From the IMG/VR virus record IMGVR_UViG_3300013137_000129, positions 1-20,754 of that record: a stretch of 20,754 nt of DNA; one strand, written 5' to 3'. Position 1 is the first letter of the stretch, and each line of letters opens with the position of its first letter. Shown in pieces: positions 2,394 through 20,484 of the stretch. The DNA comes from a virus. The position numbers and the translations under genes were made by a program. Under the pieces are notes generated by a model. It ran no database searches. It was given only the letters and a program-made list of their open reading frames with translations, and was not told where the DNA came from.

Positions 2394-2409
2394 TTCGGGG
2401 ACGCCCGAA
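2394..2409 (+). promoter_or_regulatory. Short hairpin in leader region
   Basis: TTCGGG (2394-2399) pairs with CCCGAA (2404-2409) across the four-base loop GACG. It stands eight bases before the stem of the intrinsic terminator at 2417-2463. The two structures together look like a compact structured leader or the end of a small RNA. No protein is encoded here. Confidence 0.45.
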
Positions 2410-2416
2410 TTTATCG

Positions 2417-2463: not shown

Positions 2464-2473
2464 AGGAGAAGAC

Positions 2474-4346: not shown

Positions 4347-4470
4347 AAAGAAGGCGAAAAACATTAAGGAACCAGAAAAGAAAAAGGAAATTACAGTGAC
4401 AATTGCACCTAAGGGAATGATGGTTAAAGCAAAAACTTTCATAGTATCACTTTTTAAGAAGCAATTATAA
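4339..4470 (+). CDS. 43-residue basic protein between portal and protease
   Basis: A short frame, MDKKKAKNIKEPEKKKEITV..., runs from the ATG at 4339 to TAA at 4468-4470. It overlaps the portal stop through ATGGATAA and ends 13 nt before the next gene. The first 17 residues are almost all charged. The remainder (ITVTIAPKGMMVKAKTFIVSLF) is amphipathic or hydrophobic. The same stop-start overlap style is used by confirmed neighbours (for example at 13795), which supports real translation. The function is unknown. No family is recognised. Confidence 0.55.
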   Translation: MDKKKAKNIKEPEKKKEITVTIAPKGMMVKAKTFIVSLFKKQL

Positions 4471-4483
4471 AGGGGGAATCAAG

Positions 4484-5641: not shown

Positions 5642-5661
5642 TCGCCGAGGGGATATCGTGT

Positions 5662-5686
5662 TTAATTCACGTGAAATAAATTAACC
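5662..5686 (+). repeat. Start-associated repeat, copy 1
   Basis: The sequence starts TTAATTCACGTGAAATAA and ends ATTAACC. It has a perfect 10-bp palindrome, TTCACGTGAA (5666-5675), inside the outer inverted arms TTAATT (5662-5667) and AATTAA (5679-5684). It lies between the protease-scaffold stop and the AAGGAGG SD of the decoration gene. All 25 bases are identical at 8958-8982. Confidence 0.9.
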
Positions 5687-5699
5687 AAGGAGGATTCAG

Positions 5700-6437
5700 A
5701 TGTCACAGGAAAATGTAGGAGTTAAGACGTTTACGGCGACAGAGGCATTAGAAGCCTATCGCCGGGTAAAATTAACCACCGGAAGCGGAACCGCTGTTGA
5801 GTATGCGGATGCCGGTGAAGAATTTATTGGTATTACCGCTTGCAAAGCTGCACTGGGCGAAAGCGTTCCAGTAACGTTACGTTCAGCATCCAGAACATAT
5901 AAAGCTGTTGCAGCCGAAGTGTTGGCTGTTGGGGCAGTTTTGTATGGTGCCAATGATGGCAAAGTGCAGGATACCGCTTCTGGTACCGCGCAAGGCACAG
6001 CATTAGAGGCCGCAACTGCTGATGGCGACGTCATTGAGATTCTATCAAATAATGGCGCTGCCGGAAATATCGGCCCGAGCTCTTTTGTTGATGAAGCTGC
6101 CAACAACGGAGCAGTTCCGATTTTGATCCGCAAGGTCTGTAATTTCAACGCAACCCCGGATGCAATTGCCGTGGCCACAGCCGCTCGCAAGTTACGCATC
6201 TTGGATTGGTGGATTCGCGCCATCGATACTACGGACAGCAATATTACTGTTAAAAACGCCGGAACGTCAATATCTACTGCCGTTTTGGCAAAAGGTGCCA
6301 CAGCAGACGCGATTGTGCGTGCCGCTAGCATCGTAGATGCCCAGGCTGAAGTCGCATCAGGCGCAGCGATTACCGTAGAATCATCTGCTGCAAGTGCGGA
6401 TATCGAGCTTTATATTCTCGCAATACCCGTAGCCTAA
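5700..6437 (+). CDS. Capsid decoration protein (DUF2190-like N-terminus)
   Basis: A 245-residue protein in the position of lambda D, between protease/scaffold and major capsid. The N-terminal 115 residues are rich in Ala, Gly and Val with short beta segments (ALEAYRRVKLTTGSGTAVEYA, FIGITACKAALGESVPVTLR, AVGAVLYGANDGKVQDT), like the small beta-rich cement proteins of the DUF2190 type. A second domain (about 138-245) begins VPILIRKVCNF and is probably exposed on the capsid surface. Such proteins bind capsid vertices or facets and stabilise the filled head. The SD block AAGGAGGATTCAG is identical to that of the capsid gene, which fits similarly high output. The second domain has no clear identity. 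Confidence 0.78.
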   Translation: MSQENVGVKTFTATEALEAYRRVKLTTGSGTAVEYADAGEEFIGITACKAALGESVPVTLRSASRTYKAVAAEVLAVGAVLYGANDGKVQDTASGTAQGTALEAATADGDVIEILSNNGAAGNIGPSSFVDEAANNGAVPILIRKVCNFNATPDAIAVATAARKLRILDWWIRAIDTTDSNITVKNAGTSISTAVLAKGATADAIVRAASIVDAQAEVASGAAITVESSAASADIELYILAIPVA

Positions 6438-6509
6438 GCAGTAGGAAGGTAATAAAAGGTTAACCCGTGTATCAAATACAAAACAGCAACACTAAAAAGG
6501 AGGATTCAG

Positions 6510-7475
6510 ATGCCAGGTATTGATTATTCAGGATCGAGGGCTACGCCTAGATTGGATCTTGGGGCGGCAGTCATGGAGTTCATGCAGCAGGATAGCGATT
6601 ATATCGGGACGAAAGTTTTCCCGGTATTTCCTACCAAAGTAAAAAAGGCCACTTTCCCGGCAATCACCCGCGAAACAATCGCACAGACGGGTGATACCAA
6701 GAGGTCAGCAAGAAGCAATTACAACCGCGGAAGCTTCGGGGCAAAGGATAAAACCTATTCCTGCGAAGAGAACGGATGGGAAAGCCCGGTTGACGATTCC
6801 GAAAGAAATATGTATGCCAGCGATTTCGATGCCGATTTGACGGCCACAAAGATCGCCCTTGGCGTAGTGTTAAGGAATCAGGAAAAAAGGATCGCGGACA
6901 AACTTTTCAGCACTAGCACATTCACCGGAGCAGCTCTGTATACCGACATTTCCGGCAGCGCTCCTTGGGCCACGGTAACCTCTAAAGTTATCGCAGCCGT
7001 CCGCGCAGCAAAGCAGAAAGTGCGCGCAAATTGCGGTCTATTGCCGAACGCAATCGTCATGAGTGCAACGAATAGAGATCGGCTTATTGCTTTGGATGAG
7101 GTGAAAGATGCCATTAAGTATACATCCAGAACAACCGAGCAGGAATTGATCAACGCTTTGGCTGATCTTTTAGGCGTGAAATACGTTCTTGTCGGCAATG
7201 CCATCAAGAACAGTGCCAAAGAAGGACAGGCATTCTCCAGCGCCGATATTTGGTCAGCGACTTATGTTTCTCTGGCCGTGGTCGCGGAAAATGCGCTTGA
7301 TCTTTCTCAACCGTCAGTTGGCCGTACATTCCTTTGGACCCAGGATTGCCCGGACAACGCGTTTGTTGAACAGTATCGCGATGAGGATATCAGAAGTGAC
7401 ATCTTCCGCGTACGTCAGCACACGGATGAGAACCTGGTGGATGCATATTTCGCGCATCTACTGAAAGTAGCGTAA
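6510..7475 (+). CDS. Major capsid protein, lambda gpE-like (HK97 fold)
   Basis: A 321-residue protein (lambda E has 341) at the expected place after the decoration gene. The N-terminal segment (YIGTKVFPVFPTKVKKATFPAI) matches the start of E-type capsid proteins. A middle helical region (DLTATKIALGVVLRNQEKRIADKLFS) fits the long spine helix, and LPNAIVMSATNRDRLIALDEVKDAIKY fits the A-domain region of this family. No separate delta domain is evident, in agreement with a separate scaffold. It probably forms the icosahedral shell with the decoration protein. SD AAGGAGG is seven bases before ATG. A stable hairpin follows at 7495-7520. Confidence 0.88.
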   Translation: MPGIDYSGSRATPRLDLGAAVMEFMQQDSDYIGTKVFPVFPTKVKKATFPAITRETIAQTGDTKRSARSNYNRGSFGAKDKTYSCEENGWESPVDDSERNMYASDFDADLTATKIALGVVLRNQEKRIADKLFSTSTFTGAALYTDISGSAPWATVTSKVIAAVRAAKQKVRANCGLLPNAIVMSATNRDRLIALDEVKDAIKYTSRTTEQELINALADLLGVKYVLVGNAIKNSAKEGQAFSSADIWSATYVSLAVVAENALDLSQPSVGRTFLWTQDCPDNAFVEQYRDEDIRSDIFRVRQHTDENLVDAYFAHLLKVA

Positions 7476-7494
7476 CCGTAAGTAAAAGTCCATT

Positions 7495-7520
7495 GCCTCG
7501 GGGAAGAAATTCCCCGGGGC
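7495..7520 (+). terminator. GC-rich hairpin after the capsid gene
   Basis: GCCTCGGGGAA (7495-7505) pairs with TTCCCCGGGGC (7510-7520) over all 11 positions with one G-T pair, closed by the loop GAAA. GTGGTTTTTA follows, a modest T tract. It can act as a partial terminator or as a 3' stabiliser of the capsid mRNA. Downstream genes lack another clear promoter, so complete termination is unlikely. Confidence 0.65.
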
Positions 7521-7534
7521 GTGGTTTTTAAGCC

Positions 7535-7882
7535 ATGACTTTTAAGACACAAATGGCCGCAGATGCGGCAAATGCAATTTTAAACGGCGATGAGTTTGCT
7601 GAAGCGATAACCTACACCAGTAAGGGCGGTACCGCTAAATCTATTAAGGCTATCGTTGAACGCAAGAGAATTTCGCCGGCAAGTGAAGACACAGGCCGCA
7701 CACTTATAGATCAAGTTGAGATCTTTATCGCTAATGACGCTACTTATGGCGTGACATCGATAAACAAGGGCGGAGATACGGTCTCCTTGCCGGAACGTAT
7801 TGGCGGTTCAAATATAACATGGAGCGTAACTGATATTTTAGGCCAGGACGCGGGAATCTGGCATTTATTGATTACGAAATAA
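7535..7882 (+). CDS. Head-tail connector, lambda gpFII-like
   Basis: A 115-residue protein (lambda FII has 117) directly after the capsid gene. The N-terminal helix DAANAILNGDEFAEAITY and following beta strands (AKSIKAIVERKR, TLIDQVEIFIAND, NITWSVTDILGQDAGIWHLLI) match FII-type connectors, which form the ring joining the W-sealed portal to the tail terminator. No FI-like gene is present between capsid and this gene. No good SD is seen at the ATG at 7535. It is only 14 nt after the hairpin and may depend on it. Its stop lies 1 nt before the next start. Confidence 0.72.
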   Translation: MTFKTQMAADAANAILNGDEFAEAITYTSKGGTAKSIKAIVERKRISPASEDTGRTLIDQVEIFIANDATYGVTSINKGGDTVSLPERIGGSNITWSVTDILGQDAGIWHLLITK

Positions 7883-7883
7883 T

Positions 7884-8495
7884 ATGTCCGAGTTAACGGC
7901 TGAAATAAATACGAACAATTTAGAAAAAGCCTTGAGGCTATTCCCAAAGGAATTGAAATATAATATTGCCGATGGGATGGATCATATTAGCCGTAAATTC
8001 TTAAATACGTTTCGTAAATCACGGTTACAAGGTCCCCCGGGAGTACGTTCAGGATCCCATGGTATATTTGGCTATTTTCACCGGGCAAGTTTAGTATCGC
8101 AGGACATTGAGGGCATGGGAATGGAAATTTTTACCGATTCAAAGATCGCCCGGATCCATGAAACCGGCGCCACAATCACTAACCCTGGTGGAGGTAAGAT
8201 CGCCGTACCTTTGTCCCGAAGAACGGAAATGTTCCAGGCCGATGGAAGGTTAAAGCAGAAATTTCGCCGTCCGCAGTCAATAAACAGTGTTAAGAAGATC
8301 TCTTTGAATGGTAAGGGATATCTGGCAAAGATCGCAAAAAAGGCCAGGACAATAACGCCTATGTATATCTTAAAAAACAAAGTTAAAATCAAACCGCGCC
8401 TCGGTTTTATTCAAACGTGGGACGATATGCAGAATGTAAGAATTGAGATATTAAATAAATCGATTAAGGATACGCTGGAGAAAACATTTCTATGA
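7884..8495 (+). CDS. Minor tail / tail completion protein, gpZ-like
   Basis: A 203-residue basic protein (lambda Z has 192). The stretch ARIHETGATITNPGGGKIAVPL (about residues 89-110) is the family mark of Z / HK97 gp10-type tail completion proteins, where IHEtGaxI is followed by a segment ending in LAIPL. These act at the head-proximal end of the tail and are needed to make joined particles infectious. Location between FII-like and U-like genes agrees. The ATG lies 2 nt after the previous stop, suggesting coupled translation, and its own stop overlaps the next start by ATGA. Confidence 0.75.
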   Translation: MSELTAEINTNNLEKALRLFPKELKYNIADGMDHISRKFLNTFRKSRLQGPPGVRSGSHGIFGYFHRASLVSQDIEGMGMEIFTDSKIARIHETGATITNPGGGKIAVPLSRRTEMFQADGRLKQKFRRPQSINSVKKISLNGKGYLAKIAKKARTITPMYILKNKVKIKPRLGFIQTWDDMQNVRIEILNKSIKDTLEKTFL

Positions 8496-8956
8496 GCACG
8501 TCTTTGCGCGAATATATTTTAGCAAATCTTAAAACTACTCTTGAAGGCATAACGGTTGTCGGAGGATATAACAACACCATTTTAAGTGTTCAGCGTTGGA
8601 ATCAAAAAGGCAATCCGTTGCAGGCAGTGCCATGCATCGTGATTAATTCTGGATTAGAGGAAAAGAAACCGGAGCCTAACCCCCAGGCAACATGCAAATT
8701 CTCGGTATATCTCGATGTCTGGATGAGGCAAGACGATGACGCCACAGATCCATCGGATAAGGTTTTGGCCAGTCTCTTGGCTGATGTGGAAAAAGTCTTA
8801 ATGGTAGATCCTACGCGCGGAGGATATGCCGAAGATACAAACATAATAAATAATACGCCTTTTGAGACCGTTGATGGTCAACCAAGTTTTGGCATTATTG
8901 TTGAACTCGAAATCATTTATAAGCATAAATTAACCGACCCAACGGTCTATGTATAG
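8492..8956 (+). CDS. Tail terminator protein, gpU-like
   Basis: A 154-residue protein (lambda U has 131). The opening helix MSTSLREYILANLKTTLEGI, the strand VPCIVINSGLEEKK and the central FSVYLDVWMRQD strand, a helix DKVLASLLADVEKVLM and the final IIVELEIIYKHK strand agree with the U-type fold. U proteins stop tail-tube growth by forming a hexameric ring and then contact the FII-like connector. The ATG overlaps the Z-like stop (ATGA). After its stop comes copy 2 of the CACGTG repeat. Confidence 0.72.
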   Translation: MSTSLREYILANLKTTLEGITVVGGYNNTILSVQRWNQKGNPLQAVPCIVINSGLEEKKPEPNPQATCKFSVYLDVWMRQDDDATDPSDKVLASLLADVEKVLMVDPTRGGYAEDTNIINNTPFETVDGQPSFGIIVELEIIYKHKLTDPTVYV

Positions 8957-8957
8957 A

Positions 8958-8982
8958 TTAATTCACGTGAAATAAATTAACC
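8958..8982 (+). repeat. Start-associated repeat, copy 2
   Basis: Identical over 25 bases to 5662-5686. It begins 2 nt after the U-like stop and ends just before the AAGGAGG of the tail-tube gene. The same palindromic core TTCACGTGAA is found at 8962-8971. Confidence 0.9.
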
Positions 8983-8997
8983 ACAAGGAGGCTTACG

Positions 8998-10137
8998 ATG
9001 TTAATCAGAAAGAGGCAATTGGCGGCAAAGGTTGAAGCGGCAGAGGGAACAGCGGAAACGTTGGCCGCGGCCGATGCTAAATTATTGGTTTATTCTCCCA
9101 AGGTGACGCACGATGTGGAGTTTTTTACCCGTAATCCGGTAAGATCTTCGTTCTCTGGCATGGGCAAGGTCGCTGGCAGAAGGCCCGCGGGCTTAACCTT
9201 TAGCATGGAATTGAGAGGATCCGGGACCAAAACAACCGATGCCGAATGGGTAAAGTTATTAAAAGCATGCGGCTTTGAGTCCAATGTCCTTAAATCTAAC
9301 GCCATTGGCGCTATTACCAGCGGTCCTTTTCAACATGGCGAGACCATCACCGGCGGCACTTCCAGCGGCAAGGGTCGCGTTATTATTAACACAGCAACCG
9401 GCGCTACAAAAGTTTATTATGTCGTGATCAGCGGAACCATACAATCCGGCGAGGTCATCACTGGCGGCACTTCTGGAGCATCAGCAACCACTTCCGGAGC
9501 TGCCGTTACCGAAGGCCAGGAATATAGGCCCATAAGCACCACTGTTTCATCTTTGACCATGGGGTGCTATGAAGATGGCGTGCTTAAACTCATAAAAGGC
9601 GCCCGCGGCAGCGTAAAGTTCAATTTCAAGAGTGGCCAGCCGGTAATGCTCGATTTTACATTCCAAGGTGTAGAGGCTGGCATCACGGATGTCGCATTAC
9701 TGTCTGGGATCACCCATGAAACCACTAAACCCCCAGCATTGTTATCAGCTGCTTTGGCGCTGGATACTTATGCCGCGCGCATTGGGGAAATGAATATCGA
9801 TGTCAATAATACATTGTCCAGCCGGGATGATATTAATGATCCCCGGGGCCTGTTGTCGTTCCAGATTACAGACCGGAATATTTCCGGCAGTCTGAATCCG
9901 GAAATGGTGACAGTGGCGGCGTATGATTTCTATTCGAAGTTTGTCGGGAATACTGAAATCGCAATTGCGATTAGTTTAGGCGCCACAACCGGCAATATGT
10001 TCAAGTTCTTTGCTCCAAAAATGCAGTTAACCAAGGTAGATGATGAGGACAGGGATGGCATGCAGCTGGCCAAATGCTCATTTGATTTAAACGGAAGCGT
10101 AAACGGGGATGATGAGTTCAGCTTTATTCAACTTTAA
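8998..10137 (+). CDS. Major tail (tube) protein with an inserted repeat domain
   Basis: A 379-residue protein at the place of lambda V. The first 100 residues (LIRKRQLAAKVEAAEGTAET, then SFSGMGKVAGRRPAGLTFSMEL) and the region after 200 (MGCYEDGVLKLIKGARGSVKF, VMLDFTFQGV) are like tail tubes of lambda-type siphophages that stack as rings around the tape measure. An insertion (about 105-170) carries two similar units: GETITGGTSSGKG near residue 114 and GEVITGGTSGASA near 151, 37 codons apart. Such small beta-rich repeats are often surface-exposed on virions. SD AAGGAGG with the CACGTG repeat before it suggests a strong, separately controlled start. The tube assignment is sound; the insert's job is not known. 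Confidence 0.82.
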   Translation: MLIRKRQLAAKVEAAEGTAETLAAADAKLLVYSPKVTHDVEFFTRNPVRSSFSGMGKVAGRRPAGLTFSMELRGSGTKTTDAEWVKLLKACGFESNVLKSNAIGAITSGPFQHGETITGGTSSGKGRVIINTATGATKVYYVVISGTIQSGEVITGGTSGASATTSGAAVTEGQEYRPISTTVSSLTMGCYEDGVLKLIKGARGSVKFNFKSGQPVMLDFTFQGVEAGITDVALLSGITHETTKPPALLSAALALDTYAARIGEMNIDVNNTLSSRDDINDPRGLLSFQITDRNISGSLNPEMVTVAAYDFYSKFVGNTEIAIAISLGATTGNMFKFFAPKMQLTKVDDEDRDGMQLAKCSFDLNGSVNGDDEFSFIQL

Positions 10138-10154
10138 TTAGAGGAGGTAGAGAG

Positions 10155-10580
10155 ATGTTAACAGGAATAAACATTTATGAGGCAAAGCCGTACGTATCAA
10201 AATATGATCCGGATAAAGCGAACCCCACAACGTTTCATATAGGGTCATTAGATCCTTTTTTGAGATCGTATGTTGAGGATCAGACCACATCGTTAAAAAT
10301 CAGTTCGAAGAACCCGAATGATCAGGCCGAAGCGAATATCTTGATCAGCAAGAAGAACCTTTTAGCGGTTAAATTCGGGATTCGAGATATTGAGAATTTC
10401 GGAGATCCCCAGACAAAGAAGCCGGTAAAATTCGAATCAATCAGCACGTCAATCAACGGGAAGAATTATCCGGCTGTTTCTGATGAAATAATCAAGATGT
10501 TTCCAAAAGAGTTAATCGATGAATTAGCGGAGGTCGTCCTGTCGGCCAATAAGTTGACCGAGGAAGAAGCAAAAAACTGA
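10155..10580 (+). CDS. Tail assembly chaperone, gpG-like
   Basis: A 141-residue protein between tail tube and tape measure, the place of lambda G. It is soluble, moderately acidic at the end (TEEEAKN) and has the beta-helical pattern of tail chaperones. These proteins coat the tape measure before tube polymerisation. SD GAGGAGGT precedes the ATG. The last codons contain the -1 slippery heptamer A AAA AAC directly followed by TGA, so a share of ribosomes should continue into the next frame. The neighbouring position, the slip signal and the next frame make the call far more secure than the sequence alone. Confidence 0.82.
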   Translation: MLTGINIYEAKPYVSKYDPDKANPTTFHIGSLDPFLRSYVEDQTTSLKISSKNPNDQAEANILISKKNLLAVKFGIRDIENFGDPQTKKPVKFESISTSINGKNYPAVSDEIIKMFPKELIDELAEVVLSANKLTEEEAKN

Positions 10581-10619
10581 TCATGGCAGTTCAGGTCATG
10601 GATGCTGGCCTGGATTGCC
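10571..10619 (+). other. Programmed -1 ribosomal frameshift signal
   Basis: The heptamer AAAAAAC (10571-10577) is phased as A AAA AAC in the gpG frame, followed at once by TGA (10578-10580). Seven bases later starts an 11-bp stem: GGCAGTTCAGG (10585-10595) pairs with CCTGGATTGCC (10609-10619) with two G-T pairs and a 13-nt loop. Slippery site, stop, spacer and stem all fit the known layout for tail-chaperone frameshifting. A purine-rich GAGGAAG tract before the heptamer could act as an internal SD-like stimulator. Confidence 0.88.
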
Positions 10620-10909
10620 GAAAATGCACCGACGACGATAAGATCGAACGTGGGTGCAATACAGATTCACCGATTCCCGGCTATTGGAAATTCGATGATT
10701 TTGAGACGAACAGATGCCCGGCTAAACAGATAACAAGAAAGAGCATTAAGTTGCTCGAAGCTTTTTTATATTATAAGCAGGGATATTTACCTAATGCCGG
10801 TGGATGGATGGATCAACCGGCAAAATTATTTGAGGCGTTTGAAGTAGTTGAAGCGGAATTGGACAAGATAAGAGATAGGAAGGAGAAAGAAGGCAATGCC
10901 CACAAATAG
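10577..10909 (+). CDS. T part of the G-T tail assembly chaperone (frameshift product)
   Basis: After the slip the frame reads CTG ATC ATG GCA and continues to TAG 10907-10909. The fusion would have 251 residues: 141 from G, then L and I, then 108 from this frame. The T segment holds a cysteine cluster, DCRKC near its start, then RGC and NRCP, which could bind a metal. It also contains a conserved-looking QGYLPNAGGWMDQPAKLFEAF segment. T domains recruit soluble tube subunits to the tape measure. No SD of its own is seen before ATG 10583, which fits production only by frameshift. Its stop overlaps the tape-measure start by 14 nt. Confidence 0.82.
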   Translation: MIMAVQVMDAGLDCRKCTDDDKIERGCNTDSPIPGYWKFDDFETNRCPAKQITRKSIKLLEAFLYYKQGYLPNAGGWMDQPAKLFEAFEVVEAELDKIRDRKEKEGNAHK

Positions 10910-12422
10910 AGAATTAGAAATAATCATGAAGCTTAAGGATGAGATTTCTAAAAAACTCCAGGGGGTTGAGGGCGGCCTTCGTAGATTCGCCAATTCTGCC
11001 CGGGAACTGGGCCAGACCCTAAGATCTACCGGAAAAGAGATCTCCCAGATGGGGAGTGCTTTAACTATGCTGGGTGCCAGCATAACCGGACCCATGATGC
11101 TTGCCTTTAACAACGCCGCGCAGTATTCTTCCGCGGTATCTTACCAAATTGAGCGCGCGAAGGGTGCCACGCTTCAATTTCAGATATCAATAGCTAATGC
11201 ATTGGTCCCGATAATGGAGAAATTTACCAATATCCTTGGCAATTTGTTGAATGCCTGGAACAGTCTTAGCCCAGCGACTCAACAGCAGATCGTTCAGGGG
11301 GCCTTTATGGTAGGTACTTTCTTGACGCTCGGCGGAGGCGCTGTTTGGCTTATTGGTAAATTAACGACTCTTACCGGAACTGTCATTAACCTGGGAGGTA
11401 AATTTTTAAGCCTCATGCTCGCCAATATTCCCTTGACTATAATTATCGCTTCCGTGGTCATTCTTATAGCCTTAATGTTTAAATTCAAAGGCGTTGCGGA
11501 TACCGTTATGAGCACGCTGGAAGTATTATTTTTATTCTTTATGAATGGACTCGAGGCTATCAGATTAGTTTTTTCCCGCGTCATTGCATTTATCTTGGGA
11601 GGATTTGAAAAATTATATACATTACTCGGGAAGATCCCGGGACCTATAGGAAAAATGTATCAATCTATAGCCGAGGGAATGAAGAAAGCCCGGGAGGAAT
11701 TGGATAAGTTCGGAGATGGAGCTTTACCGCACCTTGAGAAGAATACCCAGAAAATAGGCCAAATCTTTCAAACCGGCGAGGGCGATTGGTCCCGCGGATT
11801 CGATAATTTAAAAAACGGCATCGCCGGAACATTCGATTGGCTTGGTAAGCTGGGAGATAAGTTTACCGACATAAAGACAACCATATACGATTGGAGCATG
11901 GCGGTAAAAGACATAATCCAGAATCTTGCTCAAGGTTTAGAAAATACCATGTCTGATCTATTCTTTGACATTGTTACCAGCAAATTTGACGATTTGGGTA
12001 AGGTCATTTCTGATTTTGGCAACCAGATGCTTAAGATGATCATCCAGGTATTAATGAAGATGTTGCTGATAAATACCATCGGTAACATAGGATTAGGTAA
12101 ATTCGGTAAACTCGCGCAATACTTCCATGAAGGTGGCATCATCCGGGCTCACAGCGGTCTTGCTGTTGATGAGGTGCCTATTATCGCCCAAACCGGCGAA
12201 GGGGTCCTTTCCCGGAAGGGTATGTCTGCCTTGGGCCGGAATAACTTTGATCGGCTTAATAGAGGTGATTCACTTGGCGGAGACGTAACAAACCAGCCAA
12301 TTGTTGTGATACAGGCTTGGGATGTCCGCGATATACAGAGAAATTCAAAAGCTATTGAAGGAGTAATTTCCAACGCTTTGGACAGGCGGAGTCCGTCAAT
12401 GCAGAAATTTCGCCGTAAATAG
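10896..12422 (+). CDS. Tape measure protein, gpH-like
   Basis: A 508-residue protein, short for the family (lambda H has 853), so the tail should also be short. The N-terminal helical segment (LKDEISKKLQGVEGGLRRFANS) is followed by hydrophobic stretches, for example GAFMVGTFLTLGGGAVWLIG (about 134-153) and ANIPLTIIIASVVILIALMF (about 177-196), able to cross the inner membrane during DNA ejection. The middle is helical. The end has the signature AHSG...VDEVPIIAQTGEGVLS (about 419-437), as in lambda-type tape measures. SD AAGGAG is found before the ATG but within the T frame. Confidence 0.9.
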   Translation: MPTNRELEIIMKLKDEISKKLQGVEGGLRRFANSARELGQTLRSTGKEISQMGSALTMLGASITGPMMLAFNNAAQYSSAVSYQIERAKGATLQFQISIANALVPIMEKFTNILGNLLNAWNSLSPATQQQIVQGAFMVGTFLTLGGGAVWLIGKLTTLTGTVINLGGKFLSLMLANIPLTIIIASVVILIALMFKFKGVADTVMSTLEVLFLFFMNGLEAIRLVFSRVIAFILGGFEKLYTLLGKIPGPIGKMYQSIAEGMKKAREELDKFGDGALPHLEKNTQKIGQIFQTGEGDWSRGFDNLKNGIAGTFDWLGKLGDKFTDIKTTIYDWSMAVKDIIQNLAQGLENTMSDLFFDIVTSKFDDLGKVISDFGNQMLKMIIQVLMKMLLINTIGNIGLGKFGKLAQYFHEGGIIRAHSGLAVDEVPIIAQTGEGVLSRKGMSALGRNNFDRLNRGDSLGGDVTNQPIVVIQAWDVRDIQRNSKAIEGVISNALDRRSPSMQKFRRK

Positions 12423-12430
12423 GAGCTAAG

Positions 12431-12769
12431 ATGTCAGAGTTCTCATACAATTGCGATTTCCCGGTAGAAGAAACAGTAATGCAGAAGACCGTAGTGTCTG
12501 AATTCGAAAATGGTTTTGAGCAACGCCGGCAAAAGTGGGCCAATCCTTTAAGATCATTCAATTTGGTATTCTCTTGCAGGACAAAAACAGAGATGGAGAA
12601 TGTTCGTAATTTTTTCACAACTAAAAAAGGCGCGCTGACTTCTTTTACCTGGACTAATCCGAACGACAGCGTTGAATACACGGTGCGGTTTAAAGAAGAC
12701 AGCTTTAAATACCAGCAGATTTCATATCGAATTTATGATTTTGAGCTGGAATTAATCCAAGTGAAATGA
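12431..12769 (+). CDS. Minor tail protein, gpM-like
   Basis: A 112-residue protein (lambda M has 109) directly after the tape measure. It is beta-rich: FSYNCDFPVEETVMQKTVVSE, RSFNLVFSCRTKTEMENVRNF and LTSFTWTNPNDSVEYTVRF. The pattern with a strand, one helix (TEMENVRNFFTTKKG) and FTWTNP is typical of gpM/Dit-like proteins which form the platform at the tail tip. It ends with an ATGA overlap into the L-like gene. A weak SD (AGGAG at 12421-12425) lies before the ATG. Confidence 0.82.
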   Translation: MSEFSYNCDFPVEETVMQKTVVSEFENGFEQRRQKWANPLRSFNLVFSCRTKTEMENVRNFFTTKKGALTSFTWTNPNDSVEYTVRFKEDSFKYQQISYRIYDFELELIQVK

Positions 12770-13386
12770 TTACTATCAATACTACCACTAAGAGTCAAAA
12801 GAACGCTTCAACGAATAAGCCGATATATCTTTATACCATTTTCGACTACGATGGGGTTGGCTCTAATCTTTATTTCGCGGGTTACGATACGGATATCATC
12901 TATAACGGAATAACCTATACCAGATTCCCTATAACTCATGAAAGTATTGGAGAGAATTCCCAGGGCGAAATCGAAGGGGTAAAGATATCGGTATCAAACG
13001 TTAGTCAAGCTATACAGACTTATCTTGAGCTTTATGATTGGAGGAAAAAGAAGGTTACCATTCGTATGGTATGGGCAGATCAGCTTGCCGACACGGATGC
13101 GTATATAGATTTTACCTATTTTATCGATAATTACATAGCAAACGAGAAGGTTGCGGAATTCAATCTTTTACCTAAGACCGATGTCCTGGACGTCAATGTG
13201 CCGGCCCGGGTATATTCGCGCAATTATTGTTCGTGGAAGTTTAAATCAACCGAATGCGGATATTCCGGTGCCACGACAACTTGCAATAAGACTAAGGCAG
13301 CATGTAAAGCCATGGCCGGAGGATCTAACTATCTACGTTTTGGGGCCTTTCCAAGTATTCCTACAAGACGTATATATGTGGGGTAA
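12766..13386 (+). CDS. Minor tail protein, gpL-like, with Fe-S cysteine set
   Basis: A 206-residue protein (lambda L has 232). Four cysteines at C155, C164, C173 and C180 in the NYCSWKFK...ECGY...CNKT...AC arrangement, followed by RFGAFPSIP (191-199), are the mark of L-type tail proteins. Lambda L is known to bind a [4Fe-4S] cluster through its C-terminal cysteines. The same is inferred here. The protein sits in the tip complex between M and the J-like fibre and probably forms part of the membrane-contacting hub. Its start overlaps the M-like stop (ATGA) and the next gene begins 2 nt after its own stop. Confidence 0.88.
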   Translation: MITINTTTKSQKNASTNKPIYLYTIFDYDGVGSNLYFAGYDTDIIYNGITYTRFPITHESIGENSQGEIEGVKISVSNVSQAIQTYLELYDWRKKKVTIRMVWADQLADTDAYIDFTYFIDNYIANEKVAEFNLLPKTDVLDVNVPARVYSRNYCSWKFKSTECGYSGATTTCNKTKAACKAMAGGSNYLRFGAFPSIPTRRIYVG

Positions 13387-13388
13387 TT

Positions 13389-13802
13389 ATGTTGACTCAA
13401 GTAGATGAAAAAACCGTAATTGACAAGTATCTTGGTACCCCTTATTTGCATGGAGGTAGAACCTTAGATGGACTGGATTGCTGGGGGCTTATCAAGCTGG
13501 TATACGCGGACAGAAGCATAAAGCTTTGGGATATTGACGAGGTTTACGCAAAAGACTGGTCCCGGAAAAATAAAAACCTATTCATTGAAAACTACTGGAG
13601 AGATTGGGAGAGGGTTATTAATCCGGGATTGTTTGATGTTGTGCTTTTTAAAAATAACCACGGGATAACTAATCATGCCGGAATAATCTTAAATGAAGAA
13701 ATGTTTTTGCATTGTCGGAGAGGCGGTACGGTAGTGAGTAAATTATATGATTGGGAAGATAAGATAGAGGGATTTTACCGACATAAAGGACAAAATGGTT
13801 AA
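13389..13802 (+). CDS. NlpC/P60-type tail peptidase, gpK-like
   Basis: A 137-residue NlpC/P60 domain. The catalytic triad is visible: C31 in LDCWGL, H96 in NHAGI and H108 in FLHC. Such proteins cut peptide cross-links in peptidoglycan and help the tail or ejection apparatus through the cell wall. Lambda K has an N-terminal JAMM peptidase as well; that domain is missing here, so only the cysteine-peptidase half is kept. The gene lies at the usual place between L and I/J and overlaps the large fibre gene by 8 nt (ATGGTTAA). Confidence 0.9.
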   Translation: MLTQVDEKTVIDKYLGTPYLHGGRTLDGLDCWGLIKLVYADRSIKLWDIDEVYAKDWSRKNKNLFIENYWRDWERVINPGLFDVVLFKNNHGITNHAGIILNEEMFLHCRRGGTVVSKLYDWEDKIEGFYRHKGQNG

Positions 13803-16800
13803 GATTACACTTATACCTAATATTTTAAATCACGATGGCCGCGTTTCCGCTACTTTGCCATTTGTCAGGAATCTTCCGCTTAAAGAATATATTAAGCTTT
13901 CAAGCTTCAAAGCTGATGGATGGAAGATAATCGTTTCCGGGAAGCAAATAAAAGACCTAAATCAGTCAATAGACAATGAAGATGAGATTATTATAACCCC
14001 GGATGTCCAGCTTGAAGCCATCGGAGCATTCTTGTATTGGGCATTTGTTACCCATTGGTTTACTACCCTGGTAGTCATTGCTACTATTGCCACAAGTGTT
14101 ATCAGCTTAATGATGGCCCAGGGTATCCGCGCGCCAAGTTTTGGCACTGTAGGTGATGGTTTGGATGAAAGTAGTCCTACCTATGGATGGGATGGTATAT
14201 CAACGCAACAGGATGTGGGGATCCCCGTACCTATCATATTCGGAGAACACAAGGCCGGAGGCAATCTTGTTAGCCAATTTATTTCAAGTGACGGCGATAA
14301 AAATTATCTTAATGTCCTAATTGCTCTTTGTGAAGGTGAAATAGAAAGCATATCTGATATCAAAGTAAATGATCAGCCTATCGCTAACTTTTCCGGGATC
14401 ACCAACACTACTAAGCTCGGGACATCAGCCCAAGCGGTAATACCTAACTTTGAAGACCTGCATAGTACTTATAGTGTGGGGGTAGCATTAAACACACTAA
14501 ACAGCAACCACATCTATACTACCGACGGAATTGATATTGAGGGATTTGATGTCTTATTAACGCTTCCGAGCGGCTTATTTCAAACCGATTCCGGGACCGG
14601 AGCAATAAATAGTTGGGAGGTAACATACAAGGTTGAGTACAAACTGCATGCGGATAGTTCTTGGACTAATCTTGGAAATACCACTATATCCGATAAATCA
14701 AGAACCGCACTGCGCCGGACATTCAGTAAGCGCGGGCTAACTCCCGGTCAATATGATATCAGGGTTACAAGGGTGTCTGATGCCAGTACGCTTGATCCGG
14801 TCAAAACAGGAGATCTCACCTGGAGCAGCGTTGACGAGGTGACTACCGATGATTTGTCTTATCCCTATACCGCATTATTGGGGATAAAAGCCTTAGCCAG
14901 TGATCAGCTTTCCGGGGCAACTCCCAACTTTTCAGCGGTCGTAAAAGGCAAAAAGATACTAGCTCCAGATATCCGATATGGTGGCAATCCTATTTCTTGG
15001 GAGGACTACTATTGGGATGATGTAAATAGCCTTTGGAAGAGATTGTCTGACGATGCTTCCTGTACCTGGGATGGCGTTTCTTATGTAGAAACCTACTGTG
15101 CTAACCCGATTTGGTGTCTTAAATATTTACTTACCGATACCCGGTTTGGTTTAGGGGAATTTATAGCATCCAGTAATATCAATGCAGGCCAGTTCCTTGA
15201 TATGGCAAAATATTGTGACACCAAAGTAAGCGATGGTAATGGAGGATATGAGAAACGCTTCCGGCTTGATTTAGTAATAGATGGATCCACCAAGGCTCTT
15301 GATGCCATTCTACAGATCTGCGCCACCTTCCGGGCATTTCCTTTTTACTCGAATGACAGTATCAGCATAGTAATAGATAAAGCTGGTACTCCTGTCCAGC
15401 TTTTTGGTATGGGAAATATTATCAAGGATAGTTTTCAGCAATCTTGGAAATCCGTCAAAGATGTTCCGAACGTTATTGAGGTGCAATTCCTCGATAAGGA
15501 TCTTGACTATAAGCAAGAAACAATCGCGGTAATTGATGAGACTGCCCTTGCCGCGGGAGATCCTATGCGTAAGAAGCAGATTAAAGTATTCACAACCCGC
15601 AAAAGCTACGCCTTACGTGAGGGCAAATATGCGCTACTTAATTGCAAATATGTAAACAGATCCGTATCATTCAAAGCCGGCATGGATGCTATAGCTTGTC
15701 AGGCCGGAGATATTATAAGCGTGGCCCATGATGTTCCACAATGGGGCTTTTCCGGCCGGGTTCAATCCGGATCAACCACCACAAAGGTTAAATTAGATCA
15801 AAGCGTCACAATAGAAGCCGGCAAAACCTATAAAATTATGGTTAGATTTGCTGACGATACAATTGTGGAAAAGACCGTTAGCGATGCAGCCGGGACCTAT
15901 ACAGAAGTAACGGTAAGTGTAGCCTTCAGCCAGGCGCCAGCGGCCGGAGATATCTATTCTTTTGGTGAAAATAACAAAGTTAAAAAGGATTTTAGGGTAA
16001 TAGGGATTAAAAGGGAGAATGAAGGTGAAGTTGAAATTCTTGGCATTGAATACAACAGTAACATTTACGATACAGATTCGATTACCATTCCAACCAATAA
16101 CTCTTCGTCCTTGACGTTAACCGTTCCACCTGTCACTTCACTTGAATTGACTGAAGGGGTTGCGGTATTACCTTCCGGTGTCGTTAAAAGCACTATAGAG
16201 GTTTGGTTTCAAAAACCGGACGATATCGGCTGTCAAAATAAATATTATTATGCAAAGATATTTCTTTCCGATGATGGCGGAGTGAGTTATTACCCGGTAG
16301 GGGTATCTTATGGCATTAATTATACAATCGATAAAGAACTGATTAAGAATACGACCTATTATGTTAAGGTGCTGACTGTTTGCACAAATGGCATGGAGGG
16401 GATTTTAAGCGATGCGCCAACAGATAGTATCTTGATCCAGGGACGCCAAACGCCCCCGGCATTAGTTACGGGATTCGCTTATTCATGGGGATCAGAATTG
16501 GAATTGACCTGGGGAAGCGTTACCAGCTTGGATTTAGCCGGATATGAGATTCGTGATGAGGATTCGAATTGGGGGACTGACAGTATTCATCTTATCTTTA
16601 GGGGGTTGGCAAACAAGAAAATATTAATACCTGCGACTCGTTCCCCGGGTACCTATTACATAAGGGCATTTAATTCAAGTAAGATATATTCGATATCTTC
16701 GGCATCAGTGACTCCGGCAAACGCCGCGCCGGCAGTTCCTACCGGGTTAGGCGTAGATATCTTTTTTAACATCGCAAGATTGTATTGGACTGACCTTTCG

Positions 16801-18210
16801 GCTACCGACATTTTAAATTATGAAGTTTGGGTATCAAAAACAAACGCCTGGGCGGGTGAAGAGACCCTTCTTTCTAAGGTATCAGGTAGAAATTGTACCG
16901 TTCAAGGTGAGACCGCTTTAAATGGTATAGCCGATGATGATGGTATTGCCAATACCGATTATATAACTGACTTGACACTTGCCGGATTTGGCACTGATTA
17001 TTGGGTGGGCAGTTATGTAGAGATCATTTCCGGGACCGGATCCGGACAGGAAAAGAAAATTACCGGATACAATACCACCACAGGGAAATTTACCCTAGCT
17101 TCTGCCTGGACTACAAAACCAGATACAACCTCTAAATTTTTCGTACACTCCACAAGATATTATAAGGTGAGAGGCGTAGATAGATATGGCGAGGGAGCGT
17201 TGACATCTTCCGTGGAGGTAAAGTTTATTGAATTTACCGAGAGTATGCTTTCTGATCAGGCAATAACTGGCCGTAAGATATATGCTTCAGATATTATCAC
17301 TTTATCAGCGCAGATAAAAGACGCGATCATTACAAGCGCAAAGATTTTGAGCTTGGATGGGAGTAAGATTACCGCTAATTCGATAACAGTATCGAAATTG
17401 GCCAGCGATGCGGTCCCACCTAAGACCTTTTATCAGAATGACGCTCCTACCACCGGCATGAACACCGGAGATTACTGGGTAGACACAAATGACAGCAATA
17501 AGCTTTATATCTATCAATCCAGTACGTGGGTAGAGGTTTCTTCCGGGGGCGGTGCCGGTGGAGGCATAACCGTATTTAGACAGACATCTATTCCTACGTC
17601 TACGAGTGCCGGGGATTTGTGGATCGATACAGATGATGGAGATAAGTTATATCGCGCGACAAACGCCGGAGACACAACGATTGCTGCCGGACATTGGGAG
17701 CAGATCAATATTGCCACCGCAACCGGATGGGCGCATGCATCTGACATCACAAAAATAGACGGTGGGGATATCTATACAGGATCCATTACCGCTAACAAGA
17801 TATCAGTATCCCAATTGTCGGCAATCGTAGCAGATCTCGGAACAATTACGGCCGGGACCATTACCGGGGCGACCGTTAGGACAGCTGCATCTGGGGCCCG
17901 GGTATTATTGGATACGGATAAGCTAGTCGCTTATGATGACGCAGCTGCCGAGGTTTTTAAGGTATTAATTACCGGAACTGATGTCGGAGATGTCATAATA
18001 GGTGATTTTGCCGGAGATAAGGGCGTTAAGTGGGATAAATCTACTGGCATTTTTGAAATGAGGGGTAAATTGAAGGCCACATCTGGAGATTTCACCGGTA
18101 CCGTGAACGTGGGCACTGCCGGTAAAGTATATATAGATGGGGCAAACGAAGTAATTAAAGTTTACGACGCCTCGAGTAATTTGAGGGTTGAACTAGGGAA
18201 ATTAAGCTAA
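13795..18210 (+). CDS. Central tail fibre: gpI-like N-terminus fused to gpJ-like host-specificity protein
   Basis: A 1471-residue protein at the end of the tail module. Residues 1-70 resemble a small beta-grasp domain (IIVSGKQIKDLNQSIDNEDE). Residues 75-108 form one long hydrophobic stretch (AIGAFLYWAFVTHWF, TTLVVIATIATSVISLMM), as in lambda I proteins. From about 128 (YGWDGISTQQDVGIPVPIIFGE) the J-type hub follows. Fibronectin-like segments lie near 777, 885 and 977, and two GDxWxDTxDxxKLY units at about 1221 and 1272 flank a SSGGGAGGG linker. The C-terminus is repetitive and beta-rich. J proteins form the trimeric tip that binds the receptor. There is no variable repeat here, so the DGR target is separate. 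Confidence 0.9.
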   Translation: MVKITLIPNILNHDGRVSATLPFVRNLPLKEYIKLSSFKADGWKIIVSGKQIKDLNQSIDNEDEIIITPDVQLEAIGAFLYWAFVTHWFTTLVVIATIATSVISLMMAQGIRAPSFGTVGDGLDESSPTYGWDGISTQQDVGIPVPIIFGEHKAGGNLVSQFISSDGDKNYLNVLIALCEGEIESISDIKVNDQPIANFSGITNTTKLGTSAQAVIPNFEDLHSTYSVGVALNTLNSNHIYTTDGIDIEGFDVLLTLPSGLFQTDSGTGAINSWEVTYKVEYKLHADSSWTNLGNTTISDKSRTALRRTFSKRGLTPGQYDIRVTRVSDASTLDPVKTGDLTWSSVDEVTTDDLSYPYTALLGIKALASDQLSGATPNFSAVVKGKKILAPDIRYGGNPISWEDYYWDDVNSLWKRLSDDASCTWDGVSYVETYCANPIWCLKYLLTDTRFGLGEFIASSNINAGQFLDMAKYCDTKVSDGNGGYEKRFRLDLVIDGSTKALDAILQICATFRAFPFYSNDSISIVIDKAGTPVQLFGMGNIIKDSFQQSWKSVKDVPNVIEVQFLDKDLDYKQETIAVIDETALAAGDPMRKKQIKVFTTRKSYALREGKYALLNCKYVNRSVSFKAGMDAIACQAGDIISVAHDVPQWGFSGRVQSGSTTTKVKLDQSVTIEAGKTYKIMVRFADDTIVEKTVSDAAGTYTEVTVSVAFSQAPAAGDIYSFGENNKVKKDFRVIGIKRENEGEVEILGIEYNSNIYDTDSITIPTNNSSSLTLTVPPVTSLELTEGVAVLPSGVVKSTIEVWFQKPDDIGCQNKYYYAKIFLSDDGGVSYYPVGVSYGINYTIDKELIKNTTYYVKVLTVCTNGMEGILSDAPTDSILIQGRQTPPALVTGFAYSWGSELELTWGSVTSLDLAGYEIRDEDSNWGTDSIHLIFRGLANKKILIPATRSPGTYYIRAFNSSKIYSISSASVTPANAAPAVPTGLGVDIFFNIARLYWTDLSATDILNYEVWVSKTNAWAGEETLLSKVSGRNCTVQGETALNGIADDDGIANTDYITDLTLAGFGTDYWVGSYVEIISGTGSGQEKKITGYNTTTGKFTLASAWTTKPDTTSKFFVHSTRYYKVRGVDRYGEGALTSSVEVKFIEFTESMLSDQAITGRKIYASDIITLSAQIKDAIITSAKILSLDGSKITANSITVSKLASDAVPPKTFYQNDAPTTGMNTGDYWVDTNDSNKLYIYQSSTWVEVSSGGGAGGGITVFRQTSIPTSTSAGDLWIDTDDGDKLYRATNAGDTTIAAGHWEQINIATATGWAHASDITKIDGGDIYTGSITANKISVSQLSAIVADLGTITAGTITGATVRTAASGARVLLDTDKLVAYDDAAAEVFKVLITGTDVGDVIIGDFAGDKGVKWDKSTGIFEMRGKLKATSGDFTGTVNVGTAGKVYIDGANEVIKVYDASSNLRVELGKLS

Positions 18211-18509
18211 TGTCTGATTATGGATTAAGAATAAAAGATGCTGTGGGAAATATCTTACTTGCGATTACTGATCGGATCACTCGCTTTAGGTATAGTAATT
18301 TGGTATCGTCTGGCGCATCGGGAAATACAACGTTAAGCGATATTGCCGGTCTTTCATCAGTAGAATTCGGAATAGTAGTTAATGCGGCTTCATATACCAC
18401 TACGCCGCACGCAGTAACAAGATCAGGGACGACATTATCATGGGCGCCCAACAGTGGAACTCAATACACATCAGGGGATACATTAGTATTTTTATTTTTA
18501 TATACTTAA
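18210..18509 (+). CDS. Small tail-tip protein with YGxRIK opening
   Basis: A 99-residue protein, start overlapping the J-like stop by one base (TAATG). It opens MSDYGLRIKDAVGNILLAI, a pattern shared with the next gene (MAYGIRIKNSSGEIQID), and ends in a short beta-rich region (SGTTLSWAPNSGTQYTSGDTLVFLFLYT). Small proteins with a YGxxIxNxxG opening are commonly found after J in marine and environmental siphophages and are thought to be tip or fibre components. That role is inferred. It abuts the next gene (TAA then ATG), indicating coupled expression. Confidence 0.7.
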   Translation: MSDYGLRIKDAVGNILLAITDRITRFRYSNLVSSGASGNTTLSDIAGLSSVEFGIVVNAASYTTTPHAVTRSGTTLSWAPNSGTQYTSGDTLVFLFLYT

Positions 18510-19223
18510 ATGGCATACGGCATACGCATAAAAAATAGTAGCGGCGAAATTCAAATCGACGGAGATTACCGGAACCTTGAATATAAGCAAGGAGGTACCG
18601 GAGCCACGATTTCGCACGGAGGTACGGGTTACACCTATGCGACAACAATAGGTATAACGGCCAGTTCATTGGTTCCGCTTATCCTTATTCGCCCGGGAAC
18701 ATCAAGGTTTGTTACCTTGTTAAGCTATGATAAAAGCGGCAGCGATTATAACGGGTTTAAGATGACCACAGAAAGCGGCCAATCAGATACCATAGATTGG
18801 AAATGCTACCGCGAAACTACAACAAATAGTACCGGTTATGGGATGAGGATTTTTAATAGTTCTGGGGATGCGGTATTTCATTCAGCATCGGAATACTTAA
18901 AGATTCTTCAAATAAATAGCATAAGTTTAGGTAATCCTTCATTTAGTTCTTGGCCATACACGGATATAACGCATTCATCTTACAGCAATCCGTATTATAT
19001 CTTAACTCCCATAGGGAAATGGATTACAGATTATGTTGGGCCAACGCCACCAATACCACCCGGCATGTATCATTTTTATGGAATGGTGATTGGGATGAAA
19101 AAATTAAGCTCAACTTCTGTTCGTGTGGGATGGTTTAATTTAGCAAATTACAATATTCCGGGAGCACCTTCAGGGACAAATACCGGATGGAATCCAACGG
19201 TTCAATTAATCGTTTGTCAATAG
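18510..19223 (+). CDS. Tail-tip or fibre-associated protein, two YGxRI units
   Basis: A 237-residue protein. The opening YGIRIKNSSGEIQID (residues 3-17) recurs as YGMRIFNSSGDAVFH (110-124), so the protein looks like two related units. The sequence is rich in Ser, Thr, Gly and aromatic residues, and the end (VGPTPPIPPG, then TSVRVGWFNL and VQLIVCQ) is beta-type. It has no signal peptide or TM segment. Together with the preceding paralogous opening, it probably belongs to the tail tip and may aid host recognition. The specific family is unknown. Confidence 0.68.
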   Translation: MAYGIRIKNSSGEIQIDGDYRNLEYKQGGTGATISHGGTGYTYATTIGITASSLVPLILIRPGTSRFVTLLSYDKSGSDYNGFKMTTESGQSDTIDWKCYRETTTNSTGYGMRIFNSSGDAVFHSASEYLKILQINSISLGNPSFSSWPYTDITHSSYSNPYYILTPIGKWITDYVGPTPPIPPGMYHFYGMVIGMKKLSSTSVRVGWFNLANYNIPGAPSGTNTGWNPTVQLIVCQ

Positions 19224-19231
19224 GAGAGGAA

Positions 19232-19450
19232 ATGAGGTTTGTATTTTTAGTTTTTATTATCTTAATTTCAGGATGTGCCGCCGGTGGAAAAGTCGATTCC
19301 CATTTTAGAGAAAGCATCTATGTCCGCAAGAGCATGTGTCCACAACGCACAATGCCGGAATATCATAATTACGGAGATGTCGTCGATAAATCAGTATATC
19401 GAAGGATGCCTTCATACATGCAAGATTGCTATGAAAGGATTGAGCAATGA
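19232..19450 (+). CDS. Small lipoprotein, possible outer-membrane lysis component
   Basis: A 72-residue protein. ATG 19232 is chosen because AGGAGAGG lies just upstream and gives a clean lipoprotein signal; the frame remains open to 19187. Residues 1-14 form a signal peptide, MRFVFLVFIILISG, followed by C15 in the lipobox LISGC. The mature part (about 58 residues) is hydrophilic with two cysteines. A phage lipoprotein of this size in this place could be an outer-membrane spanin or a superinfection-exclusion protein. It is not proline-rich like lambda Rz1. The lipobox is the main direct hint of a diderm host. Confidence 0.7.
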   Translation: MRFVFLVFIILISGCAAGGKVDSHFRESIYVRKSMCPQRTMPEYHNYGDVVDKSVYRRMPSYMQDCYERIEQ

Positions 19451-19617
19451 CAAGAGAAAAACTGATAAATCTAAAAGAACAATTAGTGACAAAACTGGCA
19501 GAGGTTGAGCAGGGGATTGAACGGGCCACGTTCGCTAAGCATCAATTGATTGGAAGAATTTCACAGTTGGATGAACTCATAATAGAGATAGATAAAAAAT
19601 CAACAGGGGGGTCGTAG
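19447..19617 (+). CDS. 56-residue coiled-coil protein
   Basis: A short gene joined to the lipoprotein by an ATGA overlap and ending 1 nt before the next start. Residues 4-50 (EKLINLKEQLVTKLAEVEQG then ERATFAKHQLIGRISQLDEL) have hydrophobic residues at heptad spacing, so a helical coiled coil is likely. There is no TM segment or cysteine. Position between a lipoprotein and a one-TM coiled-coil protein suggests a shared complex, but function is unknown. Confidence 0.6.
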   Translation: MTREKLINLKEQLVTKLAEVEQGIERATFAKHQLIGRISQLDELIIEIDKKSTGGS

Positions 19618-19618
19618 T

Positions 19619-19960
19619 ATGGATACCGCGGGGGCTATAGCGAGGACTGGAATAATCGATAGCGTTAAAGATCTAGGGTTTGGGGTTGGTTTTATGGCAT
19701 TATGCTTTATTATCGTATTTTATATTCTTAGGCAACAAAAGGAGATCCTTGAACAAGCCAAAGAAGAGCGCGCGGTATTTTTAGATACGATTCGACAATT
19801 TACTAAAGCAATTGAGGAGCACACGTCCCAAGCGCGAGAATTTCACTCTACGATGGCCAAGGCTAACGAATTCCAACGAGAAGAACATAAAGACATGGCT
19901 GATTCGCAGAATTCAATCTGTCAGACACTATCGTTGGTTGCCGCAAAATTGGCCAGTTAA
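19619..19960 (+). CDS. One-TM coiled-coil protein, holin/BhlA-like in form
   Basis: A 113-residue protein with an N-terminal amphipathic stretch, one TM segment at about 20-38 (GFGVGFMALCFIIVFYILR), then a long charged helix (QQKEILEQAKEERAVFLD, then EEHTSQAREFHSTMAKANEF). This form resembles BhlA/UviB holin-like proteins and also inner-membrane spanins. The lipoprotein lying 0.2 kb upstream makes an inner-membrane/outer-membrane pair conceivable. Start ATG 19619 has a G-rich SD (GGGGGG). Lysis function is inferred, and neither endolysin nor a second holin is seen in the window. Confidence 0.65.
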   Translation: MDTAGAIARTGIIDSVKDLGFGVGFMALCFIIVFYILRQQKEILEQAKEERAVFLDTIRQFTKAIEEHTSQAREFHSTMAKANEFQREEHKDMADSQNSICQTLSLVAAKLAS

Positions 19961-19961
19961 A

Positions 19962-20132
19962 ATGGAATACCATAAATTTTGCCCGGAGTGCAAGGGTAGA
20001 ATATTAACGATAGAACAGATGCGCGAAAACAAGCCATGCGAATGGTGTCAAAAGAAACATGGTGAGGATCCCGGAGAGGCGAAATGGCCGAATCCGGCGC
20101 AGGAGGTTAAATTACAAACCCATGGATACTAA
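19962..20132 (+). CDS. 56-residue zinc-ribbon protein
   Basis: MEYHKFCPECKGRI opens the protein, and CPEC (7-10) and CEWC (26-29 or so) form two CxxC knuckles separated by about 15 residues, the spacing of a small zinc ribbon. The remainder is polar. No SD is seen; the ATG follows the previous stop by one base (TAA then AATG), so translation may depend on the gene before. It could be a small regulator or a structural zinc protein; nothing fixes its role. It overlaps the next gene by 11 nt. Confidence 0.6.
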   Translation: MEYHKFCPECKGRILTIEQMRENKPCEWCQKKHGEDPGEAKWPNPAQEVKLQTHGY

Positions 20133-20322
20133 TCATTTGATCAAGCGTGAAGATTTTGTTAAGGATTTTCTAAAGATTATTGACCGGATATTATCACGGG
20201 AGTTGCCGAAGAAAGGATCAAACGAAGATATGATTCGGCAGTCGTATAACAGCATTTATATTCGGGTAAGGCATATCAATGAAGGGTGCCGGGCAATATC
20301 GCAGCCTAATAATGGCGATTAA
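20122..20322 (+). CDS. 66-residue hypothetical protein
   Basis: A short helical protein, MDTNHLIKREDFVKDFLKII opening, basic and acidic residues in balance, ending CRAISQPNNGD. ATG 20122 is chosen within an 11-nt overlap with the zinc-ribbon gene. AGGAGG (20101-20106) lies 15 bases before it, longer than usual spacing. The stop codon TAA is part of copy 3 of the CACGTG repeat. No family is recognised. Confidence 0.55.
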   Translation: MDTNHLIKREDFVKDFLKIIDRILSRELPKKGSNEDMIRQSYNSIYIRVRHINEGCRAISQPNNGD

Positions 20323-20340
20323 TTCACGTGAAATAATTAG
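20319..20340 (+). repeat. Start-associated repeat, copy 3
   Basis: The first 18 bases, TTAATTCACGTGAAATAA, equal those of copies 1 and 2; the end differs (TTAG in place of ATTAACC). The copy includes the stop codon of the preceding gene (TAA at 20320-20322) and is followed directly by the SD AGGAGG of the next gene. The TTCACGTGAA palindrome is at 20323-20332. Confidence 0.88.
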
Positions 20341-20352: not shown

Positions 20353-20484
20353 ATGTTAGGACTCGTGAAACTCGTTTTAAGCGCTAATTTCTGGATCGGG
20401 GCCGTTATTTCAGCCTTAGCGGTGGTTGGTTACCTATATTATACCGGATCCACGCTGAATTGGAAGCCAGCTAAGAAGAAATAA
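20353..20484 (+). CDS. 43-residue one-TM protein
   Basis: A short frame opening MLGLVKLVLSANFWIGAVIS, with one TM segment at about 12-30, a cytoplasmic or periplasmic tail TGSTLNWKPAKKK and a strong SD (GAGGAGGTG, ending five bases before ATG). The start follows copy 3 of the CACGTG repeat, as do the decoration and tail-tube genes. Small one-TM proteins near the lysis region can be holins or antiholins, but size alone does not prove this. Confidence 0.6.
   Translation: MLGLVKLVLSANFWIGAVISALAVVGYLYYTGSTLNWKPAKKK

Follow-up and report, generated by a model that had tools for sequence, protein, structure and literature searches.

The 18-bp near-palindrome TTAATTCACGTGAAATAA occurs three times in the window (the whole stretch of viral DNA analysed, a linear record of 20,754 bases), each time with a stop codon on its 5′ side and a strong Shine–Dalgarno (SD) site on its 3′ side, and close relatives keep it at the same two structural genes. 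Its sequence, placement and conservation make a genuine control site probable, most likely one that a protein binds on the DNA. At somewhat less than an even chance, it is tentatively read as a clade-specific putative site for a dimeric DNA-binding protein that controls late genes.

Copies of the repeat and their placement

The source of the window is an uncultured tailed phage carrying a diversity-generating retroelement; end repeats are absent according to IMG/VR, so the window is probably a fragment. Its structural run comprises a lambda-type portal, a cement/decoration protein, the major capsid protein, a tail terminator, the tail tube, an NlpC/P60 protein and a very large tail protein. 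The genes following the three copies had been labelled decoration protein, tail tube and one-TM protein; Pfam matches support the first two labels, and the third gene encodes a 43-aa protein in which one membrane segment is likely (Table 1). The retroelement lies at the left end, with a variable repeat at 265–383 and a template repeat at 459–577 that differ mainly on template adenines (16 of 17 differences). Its reverse transcriptase (696–1724; PHROG 1423, 3e-118) follows the repeats, beside the portal and structural genes.

The three exact 18-mers, all on the plus strand, compare with a chance expectation of about 0.08 matches at ≤3 mismatches in the window, and the only further site within 3 mismatches, at 12752, is the coding end of a frame (...ELIQVK*). 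Apart from the retroelement, nothing else in the window is repeated exactly over at least 18 bases. The original prediction of a three-copy CACGTG repeat placed between stop codons and strong SD sites is therefore confirmed, and the identity of 25 bases claimed for copies 1 and 2 extends to 26 (5662–5687 and 8958–8983), with copy 3 sharing the first 18 only. The ATTAACC that follows the element in copies 1 and 2 is missing from copy 3. As claimed, the core TTCACGTGAA is a perfect palindrome, around which 16 of the 18 bases are self-complementary. All three copies have the same orientation, the asymmetric ATAA end included. CACGTG itself occurs three times in the window, always inside a copy; about 1.3 occurrences were expected, too few for any claim that it is avoided as a restriction site.

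Table 1. Copies of the 18-bp repeat and neighbouring features in the window.
Feature	Position	Strand	Evidence and remarks
Copy 1, before the decoration (cement) gene	5662..5679	+	Exact 18-mer; differs by one base in L009 (position 2459)
AU-rich ATTAACC and AAGGAGG ribosome-binding site, 3′ of copy 1	5680..5693	+	ATTAACC also at copy 2
Decoration/cement protein gene	5700..6437	+	Pfam PF09956, 1.6e-6; PHROG 673, head
Major capsid protein gene, 3′ of copy 1	6510..7475	+	PHROG 1005, major head, 5.8e-50
Copy 2, ahead of the tail tube gene and 1 nt past the tail terminator gene stop	8958..8975	+	Exact in L005, L009 and L076
ATTAACC, then AC, then AAGGAGG ribosome-binding site, 3′ of copy 2	8976..8991	+	TTAA...TAACCAAGGAGG frame also in L089/L090 without the palindrome core
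Tail tube protein gene	8998..10137	+	Pfam PF18906, 1.3e-12
Copy 3, before the 43-aa gene, overlapping the stop of the upstream frame	20319..20336	+	Exact 18-mer; orthologous gene in L083/L084 without the copy
43-aa protein gene, 3′ of copy 3	20353..20484	+	Open frame; one likely membrane segment, judged from sequence

Gaps of at least 15 nt are few between the listed genes, and three of them, 58, 41 and 30 nt long, contain the copies. The SD sites that follow read AAGGAGG, AAGGAGG and GAGGAGG, respectively, and copy 3 overlaps a TAA stop. From the dyad centre to the start codon (5700, 8998 and 20353) the distances were 29.5, 31.5 and 25.5 nt for copies 1, 2 and 3. Consistently, the coordinates in the relatives L005, L009 and L076 gave about 28–30 nt. 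The capsid gene at 6510 has a strong SD and lacks the element.

A scan of positions 1–20000 for sigma-70-like promoters (-35 and -10 hexamers with 16–18 nt spacing) found none at copies 1 and 2, where the statement that no promoter boxes are seen thus stands. Directly 3′ of the major capsid gene lies a strong terminator-like hairpin (7494–7521), so the decoration and capsid genes may share a transcript of their own that starts near copy 1. Another terminator-like hairpin, at 2416–2455 (AAGCGGCAGTTAGGTGCCTAACC...), lies ahead of the portal region; the relative L012 shares it, with one copy in front of the portal (6684–6728) and a second in front of the capsid gene (10777–10821).

RNA folding was also used to evaluate the repeat, since an RNA structure controlling translation had been proposed as one of its roles. 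The minimum free energy of the 25-mer was 0 kcal/mol, and the start contexts were not clearly better than shuffles, with z-scores of -0.7 to +1.6 (six folds, five contexts). Searches with Rfam and for tRNAs gave no match. Because no stable hairpin forms, an RNA-structure switch is unlikely.

The repeat in related and unrelated phages

The scan of viral contigs used six window proteins or protein parts together with two DNA patterns; for genome contigs a single pattern was used. The close relatives, about 74–77% identical at the DNA level, keep the element. In detail, L009 carries both copies, with CATGTG in the decoration copy and an exact tail-tube copy at 5770; L005 has an exact tail-tube copy at 1899 in surroundings identical to those of L009; and L076 has an exact one on the minus strand (8615–8632). 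The contigs of the close relatives end before the third site, so that the comparison covers copy 1 (in L009 only) and copy 2. A further scan for contigs reaching copy 3 found none closer, and two more distant records were without the motif.

The more distant relatives were without the site: those with 74% decoration protein identity (L011 and L012) and below, those matched by their capsid (L016, L018 and L019), and those with 65% tail-tube protein identity and below. Among the last, L089 and L090 (64–65% tail-tube identity; the capsid gene of L090 is unrelated) keep the AU-rich leader and the SD, with a 10-base gap in place of the core (TTAATTTATATAACCAAGGAGG in L089 and TTAACTTATATAACCAAGGAGG in L090). 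As leader and ribosome-binding site are kept and only the core is missing, the core is a separable unit. L083 and L084 are relatives at the right end (70%); there the small gene has an ortholog, upstream of the matched gene, which lacks the site. The check in relatives that had been suggested thus gave a divided answer, the near clade keeping the copies at the same two genes and the distant relatives lacking them. Since the near relatives keep a start-associated, non-coding repeat at the same genes, the prediction holds in the near clade, and the element appears from these comparisons to be clade-specific.

Across the tail-tube gap, all 24 columns were invariant among the window, L005 and L076, compared with 71.5% in the flanks. 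These were the best 24-column stretch of the alignment, and some nearby coding stretches reached 23 of 24; the naive figure for this conservation, 3e-4, is not overwhelming and comes from three lineages only. At the decoration gene, over the element and the bases up to the start codon, the window and L009 agreed at 36 of 38 positions, against 47% in the stretch just upstream. When the start-upstream regions of larger and sister phage records were screened, no comparable repeated element was found, three copies being present only in the window.

Searching genome contigs for the element together with its SD brought up one relative phage contig (L076, G011:C69), which belongs to the bin of a Dehalococcoidales MAG, and one site in Loigolactobacillus, 5′ of a metabolic gene. 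The 392 other genomes of the MAG's class contained no tail-tube homolog, so the MAG is doubtful as the host of the L076 phage, and this assignment is not supported. Among 50,697 records of known phage genomes, no match covered 80% of the 32-mer of element and SD.

The exact 18-mer was found as well in the unrelated contigs L006–L008, apparently inside coding sequence. In a further unrelated phage (L010/L079, G003) it lies at 9611–9628, 2 nt behind the stop codon that ends a capsid-like gene and 9 nt ahead of an AGGAG preceding the next start, a similar spacing. This occurrence is suggestive and may reflect chance or a shared host factor; as single chance matches exist (L006–L008), it was treated as a lead only.

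Possible roles of the site

We infer that a dimeric protein, phage- or host-encoded, binds the 18-bp near-palindrome directly 5′ of the ribosome-binding sites that serve the decoration and capsid genes, the tail tube gene and the small membrane-protein gene. The bound protein would probably act on late-gene transcription, either by repressing or blocking it like scattered phage operators and stoperators, or by marking an internal late start. A continuous dyad, repeated exactly and independent of the leader, fits the site of a dimeric DNA-binding protein, and the near-perfect symmetry is that of a homodimer site. The three exact and intergenic copies, conservation above the surroundings and a near-constant start distance (25–32 nt in the window, L005, L009 and L076) likewise argue for an operator. 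Decoration, capsid and tail tube proteins are abundant in virions, as would suit late-gene control. On the other side, the constant orientation, with the ATAA end, is not needed by a pure dyad site, the fragment holds only three copies, copies 1 and 2 have no consensus promoter beside them, and no regulator gene, ParB-type or other, was recognised in the 20.7-kb fragment, the close relatives likewise being incomplete. Of the roles that the original prediction had offered, a conserved start-associated DNA site is likely and a regulator site is preferred; an RNA structure is improbable, and modular exchange lacks support.

Given the constant orientation and the nearby SD, a translation leader is also conceivable, and we give this reading a minor but real share. 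The element would then lengthen the ribosome-binding site in the 5′ direction by an AU-rich stretch without structure, one that enhances translation of abundant virion proteins or that a phage or host protein binds as RNA; the palindrome would be incidental. It is always on the same strand, about 10 nt or less from a strong SD; alone it folds to nothing; and the AU-rich TTAA...TAACC with its SD is kept where the core is missing. However, such a leader has no need of an exact 18-base repeat with its 16/18 dyad centred on CACGTG, L089 and L090 have the leader without the core, and other genes with a strong SD, such as the capsid gene, do without the element. Somewhat less probable is passive duplication, in which recombination copied a short intergenic segment, ribosome-binding site included, from one gene boundary to another; the segment would be functionless in itself or a recombination linker. 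This would account for the ATTAACC and SD shared downstream of copies 1 and 2, and for the restriction of the site to one clade and its lack in relatives of the same gene order. But the element was kept while its flanks diverged, copy 3 has the palindrome without the ATTAACC tail, and the two copies of L009 differ from each other and hence were not simply homogenised. Nor was module replacement seen at these borders, and the proposed modular exchange found no direct support, the order of the decoration and tail-tube genes being the same whether or not a relative has the site. A chance repeat can practically be dismissed: single chance matches occur in a database of this size, like the 18-mer in L006–L008, but the three intergenic copies exceed expectation, and conservation in relatives in effect refutes it.

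A scattered ParB-family site, centromere-like or KorB-like, was considered improbable; in this reading, a partition protein of the phage or a ParB/Noc relative of the host could load onto it, with silencing or segregation of the phage genome as the outcome. At all three copies 13 of 16 bases match TGTTTCACGTGAAACA, and only these reach 3 mismatches in the window (0.07 expected). Each copy contains TTCACGTGAAA, the core of the bacterial parS TGTTNCACGTGAAACA, as well as the core TTNCACGTGAAA, and many microbial papers containing TTCACGTGAA concern ParB/parS. KorB, of the ParB family, acts from OB operator sites to silence genes near and far (PMC11790492). However, chromosomal parS consensus sequences carry an outer G and C (PMC7022226), and the outer G/C of GTTNCACGTGAAAC are A and T here (TAATTCACGTGAAATA), so that a canonical parS was rejected. 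The parS and Noc sites differ at two positions, and their proteins discriminate strictly between them (PMC7383237). No ParB_N frame was found in the window, L005, L009 or L089–L091, all of which are fragments; the ParB_N matches among relatives fall in phages without the motif, and parS-like matches in the MAG holding L076 were near the control level. Given the missing outer G/C, this strict discrimination, and the lack of a ParB_N gene in the window and closest relatives, the element was not filed as parS. Several relatives carry ParB_N-type frames; the only one that was read, near the terminase of L012 (1837–3159), continues into a DNA methylase and is thus not a partition ParB. A diverged ParB/KorB-type protein is a possible binder. 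A new phage centromere-like silencer, with a ParB/KorB-type clamp on parS-like palindromes before late structural genes that links the control of these genes with phage genome partition or with silencing, would be a very long shot. Only proof that a ParB-family protein binds the parS-like core would give that core wider interest.

For the preferred reading as an operator, the conserved exact palindrome at two major structural genes could serve as a DNA probe to fish out the regulator, and late-gene regulation in uncultured phages is little explored. The site also marks a phage clade of which at least one member carries a diversity-generating retroelement.

Comparison with known phage systems

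Leaders of the T7 gene 10 type place an AU-rich unstructured stretch ahead of the strong SD of a capsid gene. Here, in contrast, an exactly repeated palindrome is added, which is absent from relatives that keep the AU-rich leader. The parS and KorB operators are likewise palindromic, and the parS core is shared, but they are oriC-proximal or plasmid promoter sites, whereas the element lies at phage late-gene starts.

The stoperators of cluster A (L5-type) mycobacteriophages measure 13 bp, are asymmetric, bind a monomer and number more than 20 per genome (PMC9283540). Similar to these, the copies lie in short intergenic gaps in one orientation relative to transcription; the 16/18 dyad and the three copies in the fragment differ from such asymmetric sites. 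A stoperator halts elongation when the immunity repressor of the phage is bound to it; no repressor gene was recognised in the window.

The start-associated sequences (SAS) of cluster K mycobacteriophages are 13-bp and asymmetric (GGGATAGGAGCCC) with many copies (PMC3203893), and lie mostly outside structural genes (PMC12699233). The likeness to them that had been proposed holds for placement but not for sequence, symmetry or number. Cluster K SAS and ESAS are also short repeats just 5′ of starts, mostly in one orientation, sometimes overlapping the upstream stop, and of unproven function (PMC3203893). The window copies lie upstream of starts in one orientation, too, but TTAATTCACGTGAAATAA does not match the SAS consensus within two mismatches. 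The ESAS consists of 17-bp arms and a spacer (PMC3203893), in contrast to the AT-rich continuous 18-bp near-palindrome, and the many SAS copies compare with three in a 20.7-kb linear fragment, two of them before structural genes. The element is best regarded as a new and uncharacterised member of the repeated intergenic control sites that phages carry.
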